A DNA stretch of 64,000 nt from Clostridia bacterium. Lineage in GTDB: Bacteria; Bacillota; Clostridia; Christensenellales; Aristaeellaceae. The notes below the pieces were generated by a model, which did not search any database, had not been told where the DNA came from, and was given only the letters and a program-made list of their open reading frames with translations. Each line of letters begins with the position of its first letter. The stretch's first letter is position 1. Of the stretch, positions 18,584 to 24,386 are shown in pieces. The position numbers and the translations under genes are program-made. The stretch spans positions 1 to 64,000 of the forward strand of contig JAFYDF010000126.1 of the NCBI GenBank assembly GCA_017544935.1, written 5' to 3'.

Positions 18584-19366
18584 ATGAAAAAACGCCTGAT
18601 GCTGATCGCGCTGCTGTTGGCGGCTGTGCTGTTGCTCAGCGCCTGTTCTTCCGCAACGGAAAATAATAACACGCAGACGAACAATACTGCTGTCGGTCAG
18701 GTCGCGCCGATGAATAATACTGCTGCGAACAATGCTGCCGCGAATGCCGCAGCTGCCGCCAAGGAAGAAGAAGACAAGCTTCTTACTTCCAGCCTTTATG
18801 ACGCAAACGGCAATCGCATTTACGCCGGTGCCACTCCGGTGCCCATTGATCCTGTCGATCTGCCTACCGCTACGCCCAAGCCTGAACTGACCTTTACCTA
18901 TGACTGGTACACCGCTTCCAAGCTTGGTATTTCCTTCCGTTCTGCCGTAGGTTATACTGTAAGCGACGGTCTCAGTGATACTTATATTCTCACTGAACCG
19001 GCTATTGCCGTACGGGATAATTACCCCTGCACCATCTCTCTTACCGTCACTGCAATCACCAAGAATCATAATGTTGCTGACGTAAAAACTGACCTGGCCA
19101 ACTTCCTGCAGAATGAAGGCAGGCAATATGAGACCTGGCAGACCTGGACAGCTGAAAGCCGCAGTCTGATGGATGGTAAGGGCTATTACAACAACTACCG
19201 CGGTGTTCTCGCCGACGGCACTGTTGTCCGTGGCCGTGTGCATATGGCGATCATCAGCGATAACCAGCTGCTGACCCTGCACATCTCCTGCCCCGGCGGC
19301 TACAACTCCAGTTACATGAAGATCTACGATCAGATTCGCTCTTCCATCCAACCCGTTAAGAAGTAA
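18584..19366 (+). CDS. Lipoprotein of unknown function
   Basis: A 260-residue lipoprotein. The signal sequence MKKRLMLIALLLAAVLLLSAC ends in a canonical lipobox (LSAC), so it should be lipid-anchored on the outer face of the membrane. After the Cys comes a low-complexity Asn/Thr/Ala linker of about 45 residues (NNNTQTNN, AANNAAANAAAAA). A folded C-terminal domain of about 160 residues starts near TFTYDWYTASKLGISF; its alternating strands and final helix (YMKIYDQIRSSIQ) recall PsbP/Mog1-like folds, but this is only a guess. GGAGGG precedes the ATG at 18584. Its own strong promoter and terminator make it monocistronic and probably well expressed. Confidence 0.8.
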   Translation: MKKRLMLIALLLAAVLLLSACSSATENNNTQTNNTAVGQVAPMNNTAANNAAANAAAAAKEEEDKLLTSSLYDANGNRIYAGATPVPIDPVDLPTATPKPELTFTYDWYTASKLGISFRSAVGYTVSDGLSDTYILTEPAIAVRDNYPCTISLTVTAITKNHNVADVKTDLANFLQNEGRQYETWQTWTAESRSLMDGKGYYNNYRGVLADGTVVRGRVHMAIISDNQLLTLHISCPGGYNSSYMKIYDQIRSSIQPVKK

Positions 19367-19378
19367 TCCGATATTTTC

Positions 19379-19427
19379 AACAGTCCTCTTCCCGCTTGAC
19401 AAAAAGGGAAGAGGGCTGTTATTCTTT
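19379..19427 (+). terminator. Intrinsic terminator of the lipoprotein gene
   Basis: AACAGTCCTCTTCCC pairs with GGGAAGAGGGCTGTT (one G-T pair), with a loop of about 12 bases, followed by ATTCTTTT. Confidence 0.85.
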
Positions 19428-19458
19428 TGGAGAATTTGTTTTATCAGGACGGTCGAGA

Positions 19459-22311
19459 ATGAAGAAACTGCTGTCGATATTCCTGCTTTTCTGTCTGATG
19501 TTCCTTTATGCCGCTGCTGATCAGCCGGCATCCTTTTCTCTGTCTGCACCAGACGGCATACGCCCATATTCCGAGCATCGATTCACTGTGACCATGCCCG
19601 AAGCCGGCGAGGTCATCCTGACACTGCATGATCCGTATCTCTCCTATGAGATAGCGCGTGTTCAGGCAGAGGAAGGCGATACAGAGATTATCTGGAATGG
19701 TCTCATGGAGAACGGGGAGGCGCCAAGGCGCGGTGCATATACGCTGACAGCGCAGTGGCAGAGCAGCACGCAAAGCGGCAGCTGCGATATATCAATCAGC
19801 GTCAAGTCCCAGGCATATGCCCTGCAATACTGCATTCCTTCATCCGATGTCATCTATGCCGGACATGAAGGTTTTACCGTCAACTATCTCGCGACATCAG
19901 AAAATGCTCTGATCTATGTTTTTCTTTCCACGAAGGAAGACCCTGATACCGTGATCCGCCGCTGGTCTCTCCAGCCGCAGAATACGAATCCTCATAATTT
20001 TACATGGAACGGACAGATCAGCGGAAACAGCGTTGATCCTGGAGAATACTATCTGACTTTCTCCGTAAAAAACAGCCCGCAAGAACCTATCCGTCTGGCG
20101 GTCACCGTAACGCATGATGCACCGCCTGCCCTACGGGTCGAGACATGCAGCCTGTCATCCTTCATGCCCGAATCCAGCGAAGACGACGATATCTGGGATA
20201 AGCTGATGCAGCCCATTACTGTCATAGACATCGGCTATCTGAATCATCAGAGTGTATATGAGCAGCCCGACAGCAAGAGCCGTTTTCTGGGCACACTCCA
20301 TGGCCAGACGCACGCCGTGGCAGTTCTGGATCTGAACGTAAATGGCTATGCCCGCATCGGAACATGGCGTCAGGAAGATGGTTCCTATATCGAAGGCTAC
20401 GTTCCGCAGCGCAGGCTGAAAGTGGTCTCCCCCAACTCGCATTACGGCCTGGTCATTGATAAGAAGACGCAGACCCTGACCGTCTGGCAGGACGGCAAAG
20501 CACTGGGAACACTAAGTGTATCTACCGGACTTATGGCCAAAAACAAGCTTTTCCGTGAAACTCTCGCAGGAGCTTTCCTGACCAGTGAGCGAAGTGCTCT
20601 CTTTAACGACAATGGCTTTGCCTACCATTATGCCATCCGCATAGACGGAGGCAATCTGATTCATTCCGTTGGTTCCAAGACCAAAGCCGGCAAATGGGAC
20701 TATTCCATCCAGCTGGAGCAGCTAGGCCAGAAGGCATCTCATGGCTGCATCCGCATCGATCCGCGCGCCGGAGAAGCCGGTCTCAACATGTATTGGCTGT
20801 GGACGCATCTGCCAATGTTTACTAAGGTAATCGTACTGGATGACCCGGAAGCACGTGAAGCGCGCATGTCAGAACTGAATCCCACTCCGGTACCGGCAAC
20901 CCCCACGCCCGTTCCCACCGAAACGCCGGTGCCCACACCTTCACCTGTCCCCACAGATACACCGGTTCCCACCCCCACACCGGAACTGACACCGACACCT
21001 GAACCGCATTTTGAGGGCATTCTGGGCTACCGTTCCCGTGGTTTGGCAGTGCTCCAGCTGCAGGAACGTCTGACCGAACTGAACTATTATTCCGGAGAAC
21101 TGGACGGTTTGTTCGGAGATGCTACGCATAAGGCACTGGTTGCTTTCCAGAAAGCGAATGGTCTTGGTGCGGACGGTTTAGCAGGAGAAAAGACATATGC
21201 GGCACTTTGGGGAGAAGAGGCCATCAGCGCACCAACGCCATCGCCTACGCCATCGCCTACGTCTACTCCTGAGCCGACTGAAGTCCCGACTCCATCTCCT
21301 ATACCGACTGATACGCCTGTACCGACAGTCACTCCGACTCCTTCGCCCAGTCCTACCCCGACTCCGATACCTCCCGATACAACAACGATCACCATTACAA
21401 TGGCTGGGGATACGCTGCTGGGCAGCGAGGATAAGCTGCGTAATAATGAGAAATCCTTTGATTCTGTCATCACTGAAAAGGGCTATGCATACCCGCTGCA
21501 AAACTTTGCTGAACTGTTTGCAAACGATGACCTGACATATCTGAACCTTGAGTGCGTGCTCCGTAATGACTCACGTGACAAGATGCCGGATCGACCTTAC
21601 AACTTCCGCGGACCGACCGCGTTTGTTGAGATTCTGACAAGCTCCTCTGTCGAGCACGTAAACCTCGCCAATAATCACTACATCGATTACGGATACAGCG
21701 GCCGCAGGATCACACGAGAAACACTGGATGAAGCAGGTATCACGTACAGTGGCTATACCAATACCTGGATCTATGAGAAAGACGGTGTCAAGATCGGTTT
21801 CGGCGGTGTGCGCGAGACGATCTGGAAACAGGACAGGACCATTCCCACCAAAGAAATAAAAGCCCTGCGCGAAGCAGGCTGCAATTATATCATCTATGCA
21901 TGTCATTTCGGCAAAGAATACAGTGAAACGCACAATAAGCTGCAGACACAGATCGCCCATGCTATCATAGATGCCGGTGCTGATATGGTTGTAGGTACGC
22001 ATCCGCATGTAGTCCAGGGCATTGAGATTTATAACGGCAAGCCGATTTTTTACAGTCTGGGCAATTTTGTCTTTGGAGGCAACCTGACTCCCACCGACTA
22101 TGACGGGCTTGCAGTGCAGCTTCAGATGCACTTTAACCTTCGTCAGTGCATAGGTGTTACTGCAAAACTGATTCCGCTGATGACAAGCGGAATCCAGAAT
22201 GGCGAGACTGATTTCTGTCCGGTAATTGCCAAAGACGATGACAAAGCGCGTATCCTTGACCGCATTCAGTATGACAGTGAAATCGAAATCGCAGAAGTAA
22301 TGCACTTCTGA
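19459..22311 (+). CDS. Fused L,D-transpeptidase / peptidoglycan-binding / CapA-like phosphoesterase protein
   Basis: A 950-residue exported protein. Order: signal peptide (MKKLLSIFLLFCLMFLYAAA); two beta-sandwich segments of FlgD/Ig type (about 25-230); an SH3-like segment; a YkuD L,D-transpeptidase domain (about 330-480) with the catalytic SHGCIRIDP (Cys430). A Pro/Thr-rich linker follows, then a PG_binding_1 domain (about 520-585: LGYRSRGLAVLQLQERL), a second Pro/Thr linker, and a C-terminal CapA/PgsA-type metallophosphoesterase domain (about 640-950: MAGDTLLGS, HVNLANNHYIDYG, GTHPHVVQG, FYSLGNFVFGG). L,D-transpeptidases make 3-3 cross-links or attach proteins to peptidoglycan; CapA proteins act in poly-gamma-glutamate synthesis. 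The ribosome site before the ATG at 19459 is weak. Confidence 0.9.
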   Translation: MKKLLSIFLLFCLMFLYAAADQPASFSLSAPDGIRPYSEHRFTVTMPEAGEVILTLHDPYLSYEIARVQAEEGDTEIIWNGLMENGEAPRRGAYTLTAQWQSSTQSGSCDISISVKSQAYALQYCIPSSDVIYAGHEGFTVNYLATSENALIYVFLSTKEDPDTVIRRWSLQPQNTNPHNFTWNGQISGNSVDPGEYYLTFSVKNSPQEPIRLAVTVTHDAPPALRVETCSLSSFMPESSEDDDIWDKLMQPITVIDIGYLNHQSVYEQPDSKSRFLGTLHGQTHAVAVLDLNVNGYARIGTWRQEDGSYIEGYVPQRRLKVVSPNSHYGLVIDKKTQTLTVWQDGKALGTLSVSTGLMAKNKLFRETLAGAFLTSERSALFNDNGFAYHYAIRIDGGNLIHSVGSKTKAGKWDYSIQLEQLGQKASHGCIRIDPRAGEAGLNMYWLWTHLPMFTKVIVLDDPEAREARMSELNPTPVPATPTPVPTETPVPTPSPVPTDTPVPTPTPELTPTPEPHFEGILGYRSRGLAVLQLQERLTELNYYSGELDGLFGDATHKALVAFQKANGLGADGLAGEKTYAALWGEEAISAPTPSPTPSPTSTPEPTEVPTPSPIPTDTPVPTVTPTPSPSPTPTPIPPDTTTITITMAGDTLLGSEDKLRNNEKSFDSVITEKGYAYPLQNFAELFANDDLTYLNLECVLRNDSRDKMPDRPYNFRGPTAFVEILTSSSVEHVNLANNHYIDYGYSGRRITRETLDEAGITYSGYTNTWIYEKDGVKIGFGGVRETIWKQDRTIPTKEIKALREAGCNYIIYACHFGKEYSETHNKLQTQIAHAIIDAGADMVVGTHPHVVQGIEIYNGKPIFYSLGNFVFGGNLTPTDYDGLAVQLQMHFNLRQCIGVTAKLIPLMTSGIQNGETDFCPVIAKDDDKARILDRIQYDSEIEIAEVMHF

Positions 22312-22330
22312 AAAACTCCATATTATACAT

Positions 22331-22366
22331 AGTCCCGTACCAACGATCAATCGGTACGGGACTTTT
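22331..22366. terminator. Bidirectional intrinsic terminator
   Basis: AGTCCCGTACC pairs perfectly with GGTACGGGACT around an 11-base loop and ends in TTTT. It separates the fusion gene from the convergent DHH genes. Confidence 0.9.
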
Positions 22367-22371
22367 GCGAT

Positions 22372-23358
22372 TTACAGCCATCCTGTATGGGATTCTTTAA
22401 ATTCTTTCACTGCCTGATCTGCTTCAGTAATCAGCGTGCGCATTTCTTCCTGACTGTACACAGTCGCACCGCTGGCACATGCATGACCGCCGCCATGATG
22501 TCTGGATGCCAGTTCATTCACTGTCATGAAACGGCTGCGCAGGCGCACTCGGATACCATCCTCATCTGTATCGCCTTCAATGAACGCCAGCCAGCAGAGG
22601 CATCCGCGAATGCCTTCAAGGTATGAGATCGTATCCCCTGCTGTTTCTGTGTTGAGAGAGTATTCCCGTTTCATAGCACGGTCGACATACAGGTAGGCTA
22701 CGCCATTCTCTGTATAATGTACGTGCTGATAAACATATGCCTTAAAGTTTAGGATCCGAGGATCGATCAGGTAGAGATTCGCGTACAACGTTTCCATGTC
22801 GATACCCTGATCAAGCATCACCGCGGCCAGGCGCAAAGTATCACCATTGACGCCTTCAAAGCGAAAGCGTCCGGAATCAGTCACCATACCGGCATAGATA
22901 TATGTTGCCGCCTGACCGTCAATACGAAGCCGGTCCCGGAATGCTGCATAGAATGCTGCGATCATCTCGCATGCGGATGAACGCCAGTCTTCCACCCAGG
23001 ACAGTGTGCCAAATGGATCAGCCTCAATATGATGATCGATCTTGATCAGTTCACGGCACAGGGCATACTGCGGATTGGAAATACGTGTCTGCTCCGAAAC
23101 ATCGATCACGATCCCCAGCGCGCTGCGGCAAAGGTCATCTGCCACCGGCTCATCATCCGGACCCAGGAACGCAAGATAATCTGATTTCTGCCCGTCTGAC
23201 AGCACTATCCGCTTCTCCGGATAGGTCAGCTGCAGAATGCGTTTCAGTCCCTTGGTCGCTCCTACGCAGTCGCCATCCATACGGATATGGCGGAAGAGCA
23301 TGATCGTATCATACTCCTCTATCTTCTTCAATATCGCCTGTTGAATCTCACTTGCCAT
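22372..23358 (-). CDS. DHH-family phosphoesterase (NrnA/nanoRNase-like), second copy
   Basis: A 328-residue DHH/DHHA1 phosphoesterase. The metal motifs are RHIRMDGDCVGA near residue 24, VIDVSEQ, IKIDHHIE near 108, and the C-terminal DHHA1 signature GGGHACASGA. Family members degrade nanoRNA, pAp or cyclic-di-AMP breakdown products in the cytoplasm; the substrate cannot be fixed from sequence. The first motif departs from the usual HxxPDGDxxGS by having Met for Pro. It overlaps the upstream paralogue by 11 bases, so both are one operon and the pair probably arose by tandem duplication. Confidence 0.88.
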   Translation of the reverse strand: MASEIQQAILKKIEEYDTIMLFRHIRMDGDCVGATKGLKRILQLTYPEKRIVLSDGQKSDYLAFLGPDDEPVADDLCRSALGIVIDVSEQTRISNPQYALCRELIKIDHHIEADPFGTLSWVEDWRSSACEMIAAFYAAFRDRLRIDGQAATYIYAGMVTDSGRFRFEGVNGDTLRLAAVMLDQGIDMETLYANLYLIDPRILNFKAYVYQHVHYTENGVAYLYVDRAMKREYSLNTETAGDTISYLEGIRGCLCWLAFIEGDTDEDGIRVRLRSRFMTVNELASRHHGGGHACASGATVYSQEEMRTLITEADQAVKEFKESHTGWL

Positions 23359-24295
23359 ATGTTTCCCCCGCCAACTGATCCAGATCGTTCAGCATCTGCA
23401 TGGCTGTTTCACGGTCAGGCACTGTTGCGCCGCTGGCCTTCGTATGTCCGCCCCCGCCGTATTTTACTGCGATCGGGTTGATATTCTGCTCGGTCGAACG
23501 CAGTTCGCACAGCACACCATGATCGGTCTCTGTAAAGTTTACCCACACATCTACGCCCCTGATGTCCCCCATCACGCTAACCATTCCGCGGGAAATAGAG
23601 AATTCATCCGCTTTAAGCTCCTGCATCTCTTCCCGGGTCGTATAAACATAAGCCGCTCCATGAGGAGTACGCTGCATCTTCTGCATGAAGGAAGCGCGCA
23701 GCTTGACTGTATTCCAGTCCGATGCGTACAGGTTTCTGTACAGCGCATTGGTATCGATCGGCTGTTCCATCAGGTATGCTGCCAGACGGTATGTTCGTGC
23801 AGTCGTTGCGTCATAGCGGAAACGCCCCGAATCGGTCACCATGCCGGTGAACAGGGATTCCGCCGCGATCTGAGGCATGCGCAGGCCGCCTTCCATTGCC
23901 ATCGTCGTAACCAGTCCGCAGCAGCTTTCAAAACTGCTGTCCGTCACTTCGGTCTCGGCAATCTTCTCCACAAAGAGATGATGATCTATGCGCGCCGTAT
24001 GTTTAGCCAGTGAATACCGCTCATCGCTGATCAGTGCTCTCGCTGAAGTATCCAGTATGATCGCTAATGCATCGGTATATGCTTCATCCGGCACCTTGTC
24101 CATTACGCTATCACGCATAAACCCATAGCGTCCGGCCGCATCTCCGACCATGTACACAGTCTTTTGCGGCCAGTTCTCCCGGATGATATGTTTCAGACCG
24201 ATCTGACTGCCCAATGCATCCCCATCCGGCTGACTGTGCCGGTGCAAAATGATCGTATCATAGGCGGCGATTTCCCGCAGTATTGCTTCAAACAT
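23348..24295 (-). CDS. DHH-family phosphoesterase (NrnA/nanoRNase-like), first copy
   Basis: A 315-residue DHH/DHHA1 phosphoesterase with the more canonical first motif LHRHSQPDGDALGSQIG, then IILDTSA, ARIDHHLF and the DHHA1 GGGGHTKASGA. The start is the ATG at 24295, after GGAGGAAAGCAC; the longer frame upstream is untranslated leader. It is the first gene of the two-gene DHH operon, with promoter TTGCCA-17-TACAAT at 24355-24327. A role in nanoRNA or pAp turnover is the family expectation. Two adjacent copies in one operon are less usual and suggest divided substrates. Confidence 0.9.
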   Translation of the reverse strand: MFEAILREIAAYDTIILHRHSQPDGDALGSQIGLKHIIRENWPQKTVYMVGDAAGRYGFMRDSVMDKVPDEAYTDALAIILDTSARALISDERYSLAKHTARIDHHLFVEKIAETEVTDSSFESCCGLVTTMAMEGGLRMPQIAAESLFTGMVTDSGRFRYDATTARTYRLAAYLMEQPIDTNALYRNLYASDWNTVKLRASFMQKMQRTPHGAAYVYTTREEMQELKADEFSISRGMVSVMGDIRGVDVWVNFTETDHGVLCELRSTEQNINPIAVKYGGGGHTKASGATVPDRETAMQMLNDLDQLAGETYGK

Positions 24296-24326
24296 GTGCT
24301 TTCCTCCTGCCCGAAGGGGCGCTTCC

Positions 24327-24355
24327 ATTGTATCTGAAATCGTCCTGTTTGGCAA
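24327..24355 (-). promoter_or_regulatory. Promoter of the DHH operon
   Basis: Minus strand: TTGCCA (24355-24350), a 17-base spacer and TACAAT (24332-24327), about 30 bases before the start at 24295. The -35 overlaps the terminator of the upstream gene. Confidence 0.7.
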
Positions 24356-24356
24356 C

Positions 24357-24386
24357 AAAAAACGGCCTGCCGTTTAAGGCAAGCCG
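24357..24386 (-). terminator. Intrinsic terminator of the OB-fold-like secreted protein gene
   Basis: On the minus strand CGGCTTGCC and GGCAGGCCG form the stem (one mismatch), followed by a six-T run. Confidence 0.85.

Follow-up and report, generated by a model that had tools for sequence, protein, structure and literature searches.

The gene at 19,459-22,311 of the 64,000-nucleotide stretch analysed here (the window: positions 1 to 64,000 of contig JAFYDF010000126.1, GCA_017544935.1, a gut bacterium of the Clostridia, family Aristaeellaceae) encodes an exported chain in which an L,D-transpeptidase (LDT) is fused to a CapA-type domain. The chain is probably a two-headed peptidoglycan enzyme. 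More tentatively, with a probability of roughly 0.38 for the statement as a whole, we propose a wall enzyme that pairs the LDT with a probable MslH-like peptide epimerase, whose substrate would be the stems of peptidoglycan. The domains are known ones, but their combination is new. Literature searches on PGA_cap, YkuD and CapA-transpeptidase gave no print record of an LDT-CapA fusion, judged, for the papers listed, by titles and the starts of abstracts, and a term search of the main text of a 2025 review on LDTs did not find CapA or epimerase as whole words.

Domain architecture

The reading frame opens with the ATG at 19,459, its last stop base is 22,311 on the + strand, and the product has 950 amino acids (aa). 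Pfam matches were found for FlgD_ig (aa 154-204, E 6.8e-8), YkuD (aa 330-459, 42.6 bits against a cut-off of 23.4, E 1.2e-10), PG_binding_1 (aa 528-583, E 1.3e-15) and PGA_cap, the CapA domain (aa 645-873, 177.1 bits against a cut-off of 27, E 5.9e-52). The full-length AlphaFold2 model was built from 38 sequences and has a mean pLDDT (predicted local distance difference test) of 87.0. In the region that follows the signal peptide and precedes the LDT, the predicted strands are consistent with two Ig-like sandwiches and one SH3-like barrel. Two linkers flank PG_binding_1, the first (aa 460-527) with 28% Pro and 18% Thr and a pLDDT below 50 at 477-516, the second (aa 584-640) with 37% Pro and 23% Thr and a pLDDT below 50 at 597-635. 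Foldseek searches with the full model returned MslH first, matching the CapA part, and mycobacterial LdtMt2 structures next. On inspection of the 950-aa sequence, neither LPXTG nor another wall anchor was seen.

A first-pass annotation, made from the sequence of the window alone, had described LDT, PG-binding and CapA domains in one exported chain, joined by Pro/Thr-rich linkers and carrying the motif SHGCIRIDP. The open reading frame, the Pfam matches and the signal peptide bear out the chain, the composition and the low-pLDDT stretches agree with the linkers, and the motif is present as KASHGCIRIDP. All the domains it named are there, while the two N-terminal Ig-like domains and the SH3-like domain had been overlooked.

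The CapA head

The CapA domain modelled separately (78 sequences, pLDDT 97.1) superposes best on MslH (Z 32.6-32.9, 287 aligned residues, 2.5 A, 23-24% identity), followed by YmdB (Z 17.1), 5'-nucleotidases and purple acid phosphatases (Z 14-17). MslH (PDB 8gq9, 8itg; PF09587 fold) is thus the closest solved fold. According to the passages of PMC10406935 on which we draw, it acts on a C-terminal Trp, inverting its alpha-carbon through the dyads His88/Asp91 and His295/Asp11, all four of these residues are required for activity, and a Ca ion is held by Glu44, Asn87, His259 and His261. Both dyad positions are kept in all 39 distinct fusions that we collected (D651, H740, D743 and H850, with D651 placed by motif only), and the positions of Glu44 and Asn87 are also shared.

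The first-pass annotation had pointed to loss of the CapA metal ligands as evidence against its proposal. The alignment shows the opposite, since eight positions (D651, E698, N739, H740, D743, H816, H848 and H850), together with the motifs GD, NxE, NNHxxD, HxG and HxH, are conserved in 39/39 fusions. Across 79 stand-alone CapA domains, each of the eight is invariant or kept in 78, with H848 in 79/79. The domain is not filed as an MslH orthologue, because it reaches only 54.8 bits against the cut-off of 700 of NF038314, the equivalog for lasso peptide C-terminal Trp epimerases. MslH also differs in its setting, as it works on a C-terminal Trp in a cluster for ribosomally synthesised and post-translationally modified peptides, whereas the window domain is part of an exported chain that also holds an LDT. 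The second-best fold group is represented by the phosphodiesterase YmdB of Bacillus subtilis (4b2o), for which only 218 residues could be aligned with the CapA model; its D, E, N, H, H and H ligand positions have apparent counterparts in 39/39 fusions.

Other CapA proteins of the genomes studied (L147:3068-5410, L149:2426-5389 and L058-L062) are extended by long additional stretches, among them Big_2 Ig domains, DUF6273 and Pro-rich tails. This suggests that CapA may be an often shuffled surface module.

The L,D-transpeptidase head

The pattern HX(n)[S/T]HGCxR is satisfied by H402 and by S427-H428-G-C430-I-R432, and the LDT head is predicted to perform 3-3 cross-linking or exchange. LdtMt2-type LDTs, with Ig-like and YkuD domains and the same SHGC motif, are the best LDT matches of the full model (Foldseek E about 3e-11); the window chain differs from them in its added SH3-like, PG-binding and CapA domains. 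A sequence search with the LDT part against the PDB gave no match up to E 1. Mean pairwise identity among the fusions is 0.507 for the LDT, 0.500 for CapA and 0.275 for the Ig part, the least conserved, and the similar values of LDT and CapA suggest that both heads are under similar constraint.

One fusion (L106) has H402Q, H428V, C430S and R432L in frame, with intact CapA sites and an LDT profile match that still reaches 241 bits. Its genome encodes a second Ig-LDT (L169) with an intact motif (NLIH...SHGCIR). The SHGC motif is lost and the profile match kept at two loci, in this fusion (L106:3743-6385, + strand) and in a stand-alone gene (L054:3182-4615, - strand).

Distribution and history of the fusion

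We investigated 100 genomes of relatives, 60 of them from the family of the window, scoring up to eight candidates per genome. The same chain was found in the genome of the window and in seven congeners, where six chains are near full length with 57-63% identity and the seventh (G010) is split across two contigs. LDT and CapA share one frame in seven further genera of the family (G018, G022, G028, G035, G038, G042 and G057), raising the count to at least 15 of the 60 family genomes. A scan of species-representative genomes, restricted to the best 80 loci, added mostly metagenome-assembled genomes (MAGs) of Clostridia, many from ruminant gut. Fusions were called with profiles built from 13 of them. 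Over all sets, this domain-architecture search, a check proposed with the first-pass annotation, gave one-frame fusions in at least 49 loci and, once duplicates were removed, in at least 39 distinct genomes. An artefact of frame or assembly joining two genes, which that annotation had considered, is ruled out by the orthologues in seven other genomes of the genus and by the 39 one-frame fusions. PG_binding_1 is present in the eight fusions of the genus of the window and weakly in L081, and was undetected in the other 30 of these 39.

The order-wide sample (396 genomes) contained 21 genomes with a match at E<=1e-60, all in the family of the window. In the class-wide sample (391 genomes), the LDT part was matched at E<=1e-45 in the genome of the window only, the other matches being to CapA parts. 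Within the sampled genomes and thresholds, the fusion seems to be restricted to a single family of Clostridia. Another genome of the window's genus (L053, G001:C165) has an Ig part resembling that of the window gene, which is interrupted by an in-frame TAG close to the contig end; a pseudogene and an assembly error are both possible.

Trees of the two heads were quick builds without bootstrap, with support from the Shimodaira-Hasegawa-like approximate likelihood-ratio test (SH-aLRT). Among 118 CapA domains, the 39 fusions fall within one clade of 46 rows (support 100) with 7 stand-alone domains, and the fused or stand-alone label needs four changes on the tree. Among 53 LDT domains, they fall within one clade of 44 rows (support 98) with 5 stand-alone domains, and three changes are needed. 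Both modules are kept as separate genes on different contigs in G103 and G104, and G042 holds the fusion and also a split pair. The pattern fits one old fusion that would have been followed by a few separations or losses. We also considered, and dropped, an argument from LDT and CapA genes that lie side by side without being fused, as this occurs only once (L032, G043) among the scanned stand-alone CapA loci, no more often than chance would be expected to give.

Poly-gamma-glutamate genes

The first-pass annotation had seen no pgsB/C-like genes nearby, and the capB/capC check that came with it extends this to the whole genome (87% complete, 169 contigs): there is no CapC match, and the best PgsB match stays below the cut-off with 20.7 bits against 222.7. 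CapC (PF14102) is missing from all 11 genomes of the genus (this one and 10 congeners), and this genus-wide absence makes it unlikely that the locus was missed through incomplete assembly. It was found in only 2 of the 60 relatives, and PgsB exceeds the cut-off in 1 of the 60 and in no genome of the genus. Among the 391 Clostridia genomes, CapC exceeds the cut-off in one, while 75 have a CapA-type match at E<=1e-45; CapA is thus common in Clostridia where the poly-gamma-glutamate system is nearly absent. The stable CapA-LDT fusion suggests peptidoglycan as the substrate.

Where capB and capC do occur (L041/L046 in G031, L040 in G034 and L173 in G811), the order is capB-capC-pgsW, and the stretches read contain no adjacent CapA. 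The third gene of these operons is presumably pgsW-like, coding for a poly-gamma-glutamate system protein.

The window CapA and the PgsA/CapA of poly-gamma-glutamate synthesis are both named under one Pfam family; the genus of the window lacks PgsC, has PgsB below the cut-off and carries its CapA fused to an LDT. The excerpts of PMC6029982 used here indicate that PgsA alters the D/L make-up of its polyamide: the polymer made by B. subtilis PgsBC has a D/L ratio of 4-5/95 without PgsA and 75/25 with it, and without PgsA it stays at 4/96 when D-Glu is fed. In these excerpts, the authors propose an interaction of PgsA with a racemase or a conformational change. Our own reading, that PgsA may epimerise the polymer, fits the same data, and if true would offer an explanation for the D-glutamate in the PgsA-made polymer of B. 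subtilis. A literature search on PgsA and epimerisation gave no relevant paper among those listed.

Proposed mechanism and rival explanations

We suggest that the chain would act as an exported, self-contained enzyme whose Ig-like and SH3-like domains place the LdtMt2-like LDT on the wall; in the genus of the window, the PG-binding domain on its flexible linker may help in this. The CapA domain, separately tethered, would work on the same peptide material and not on poly-gamma-glutamate. Its chemistry would most likely be metal-assisted, with two bases (His740/Asp743 and His850/Asp651) inverting a peptide's C-terminal residue at its alpha-carbon, as in MslH. The candidate residues are D-Ala4 and the L-centre of diaminopimelate (DAP) 3 in the stems, which are the two residues that the LDT joins or cuts, and inversion there would decide whether a stem can serve as an LDT donor. 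There is precedent for inverting a peptide residue in the epimerisation of peptidoglycan precursors, although that enzyme, as presented in the excerpts used of PMC5808125, takes a nucleotide precursor as substrate, needs ATP and Mg and, according to the review, has no known conserved domains. A wider proposal, by which the whole CapA family would invert residues in finished peptides or polyamides (those of lasso peptides, of poly-gamma-glutamate and, here, of peptidoglycan) and the window chain would be an extracellular stem-peptide epimerase physically coupled to an LDT, is doubtful. If it were true, the handedness of the wall would be edited after its assembly, setting which stems are cross-linked, cut or sensed by the host.

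Several observations weigh against an MslH-like epimerase coupled to the LDT. The top rank of MslH is expected anyway, since it is the only PGA_cap relative that a sequence search found among solved structures. H848, present in every fusion and stand-alone domain aligned, is a Gly in MslH and probably corresponds to the YmdB metal ligand His175, while at the place of the MslH ligand His261 the window chain appears to have Gly818; together, they mean that the fused CapA may be a two-metal hydrolase. The genome of the window encodes MurI and DapF, so D-Glu and meso-DAP would come by the usual route and there is no missing epimerase to replace. Fusion-clade CapA occurs without a close Ig-LDT in five genomes (G100, G101, G102, G105 and G106), and an Ig-LDT without detected fusion-clade CapA in two (G053 and G019), from which it follows that the partnership of the two heads is not obligate; these absences are soft because several of the genomes are incomplete MAGs. 

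Two points favour what the first-pass annotation had proposed, namely that the chain serves to attach poly-gamma-glutamate, or a different D-Glu polymer, to peptidoglycan or to remodel the attachment site. One is the family name. The other comes from G031, where a gene with the Ig/LDT part is located about 2.5 kb past capB-capC-pgsW within one contig, with an opposite-strand gene between them and the contig stopping inside the LDT. With CapC missing from 11/11 genomes of the genus and from 58/60 relatives and over the cut-off in only 1 of the 391 Clostridia sampled, PgsB so rare and three capBC loci lacking an adjacent CapA, we consider this very improbable. A role of the CapA domain in poly-gamma-glutamate metabolism and the attachment of that polymer are thus not upheld, while remodelling at the wall agrees with an exported wall enzyme whose CapA site is intact and which also has an LDT.

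A hydrolase acting on a wall polymer is a serious rival. CapA could be a phosphoesterase with two metals. It would trim or release a teichoic-acid-like wall polymer that is linked through phosphodiesters and attached by LytR-CpsA-Psr proteins, with the LDT re-sealing or strengthening the wall at that place. The calcineurin-like fold, the conservation of D651, E698, N739, H816, H848 and H850, the phosphatase groups that follow MslH in the structural search, the matches of YfkN/CpdB-type phosphodiesterases to the CapA profile (E 0.00016 and 0.017) and two LytR-CpsA-Psr matches in the genome of the window are consistent with it. We find it rather unlikely, given that those structural alignments are shorter and looser (about 205-250 residues, 3.1-4.5 A) than the one with MslH, that no neighbour gene of any kind is widely conserved and that the literature searched gave no PGA_cap member with demonstrated phosphoesterase activity. 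The hydrolysed bond could also be an amide: as a metal-dependent hydrolase or transferase whose targets are gamma-D-Glu or DAP bonds of the wall, CapA would be an endopeptidase paired with a cross-linker. Peptidoglycan stems contain a gamma-D-Glu bond, wall enzymes commonly pair cutters with cross-linkers, and the named substrate of the family is a gamma-linked Glu polyamide. This explanation is nevertheless unlikely, as the fold relatives found have phosphoesters as substrates, except for MslH, which works on an alpha-carbon, and no PGA_cap member with demonstrated amidase activity emerged from the literature searched. It is improbable that one head merely binds, the LDT fold holding stems for CapA or CapA serving as a non-catalytic adaptor of the LDT. 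L106, with its LDT fold retained and catalytic residues replaced, speaks for such an arrangement, but the LDT Cys is kept in 37/38 aligned fusions, all CapA site residues in 39/39, and the mean pairwise identities of the two heads are alike.

An LL-DAP wall or the replacement of a missing epimerase was also considered and dropped, the genome of the window having DapF and MurI. For Christensenella intestinihominis, whose membership of the family of the window is not established, the reports of LL- and meso-DAP cited in the part of PMC7937921 used here are mutually inconsistent.

Features and genomic surroundings

Table 1. Coordinates of the fusion gene, its domains and site residues, and the flanking terminators.
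Feature	Positions	Strand	Evidence
Intrinsic terminator between upstream lipoprotein-like gene and fusion gene	19379..19420		15-bp perfect stem, one G-U pair allowed
Whole gene, 950 aa: signal peptide, Ig-like x2, SH3-like, YkuD LDT, PG_binding_1, CapA	19459..22311	+	ORF (open reading frame), Pfam, model
Signal peptide, aa 1-21	19459..19521	+	Sequence, end placed by eye; model helix 2-19
Ig-like (FlgD_ig-type) domains x2, aa 26-219	19534..20115	+	Pfam FlgD_ig 154-204; strands of two sandwiches in model
SH3-like domain, aa 245-325	20191..20433	+	Model strands; sub-threshold SH3_3 match in one fused relative
YkuD L,D-transpeptidase domain, aa 330-459	20446..20835	+	PF03734; full model matches LdtMt2
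SHGCIR catalytic motif (S427, H428, C430, R432)	20737..20754	+	C430 in 37/38 aligned fused rows; motif 38/39
Pro/Thr-rich linker 1	20839..21039	+	Composition, model
PG_binding_1 domain, aa 528-583	21040..21207	+	PF01471
Pro/Thr-rich linker 2	21208..21378	+	Composition, model
CapA (PGA_cap) domain, calcineurin-like fold, aa 641-950	21379..22308	+	PF09587; CapA-only model; MslH match
D651 (= MslH Asp11, YmdB Asp8)	21409..21411	+	39/39 fusions; placed by N-terminal GD motif in first strand
E698 of NLE (= MslH Glu44)	21550..21552	+	39/39 fusions; MslH alignment
N739-H740-x2-D743 (= MslH Asn87, His88, Asp91)	21673..21687	+	39/39 fusions; MslH alignment
H816 (probably MslH His259 / YmdB His150, by inference)	21904..21906	+	39/39 fusions; region outside HMMER alignment
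H848-P-H850 (H850 = MslH His295; H848 = Gly in MslH, probably YmdB His175)	22000..22008	+	39/39 fusions; MslH alignment; YmdB numbers from PMC10406935
Intrinsic terminator 3' of fusion gene	22331..22363		11-bp stem, then TTTT

The fusion gene is probably its own transcription unit, since terminators on both sides (Table 1) indicate that it is transcribed alone; the region 19,370-19,440, containing the upstream terminator, has a folding energy of -29.2 kcal/mol. No operon partner emerged among the 49 fusion loci (duplicates included), as the largest neighbour cluster is common to at most 7 of them and no neighbour is widely kept. Members of the two largest clusters are encoded on the strand opposite to the fusion.

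Upstream, a lipoprotein-like gene (18,593-19,363, + strand, 257 aa) has no Pfam match over the cut-off, and some congeners (L013, L015) have a similar gene 5' of their fusion. Downstream and convergent with the fusion gene, there is a tandem pair of DHH/DHHA1 phosphoesterase genes (22,372-24,358, - strand), which we take to be NrnA-like.

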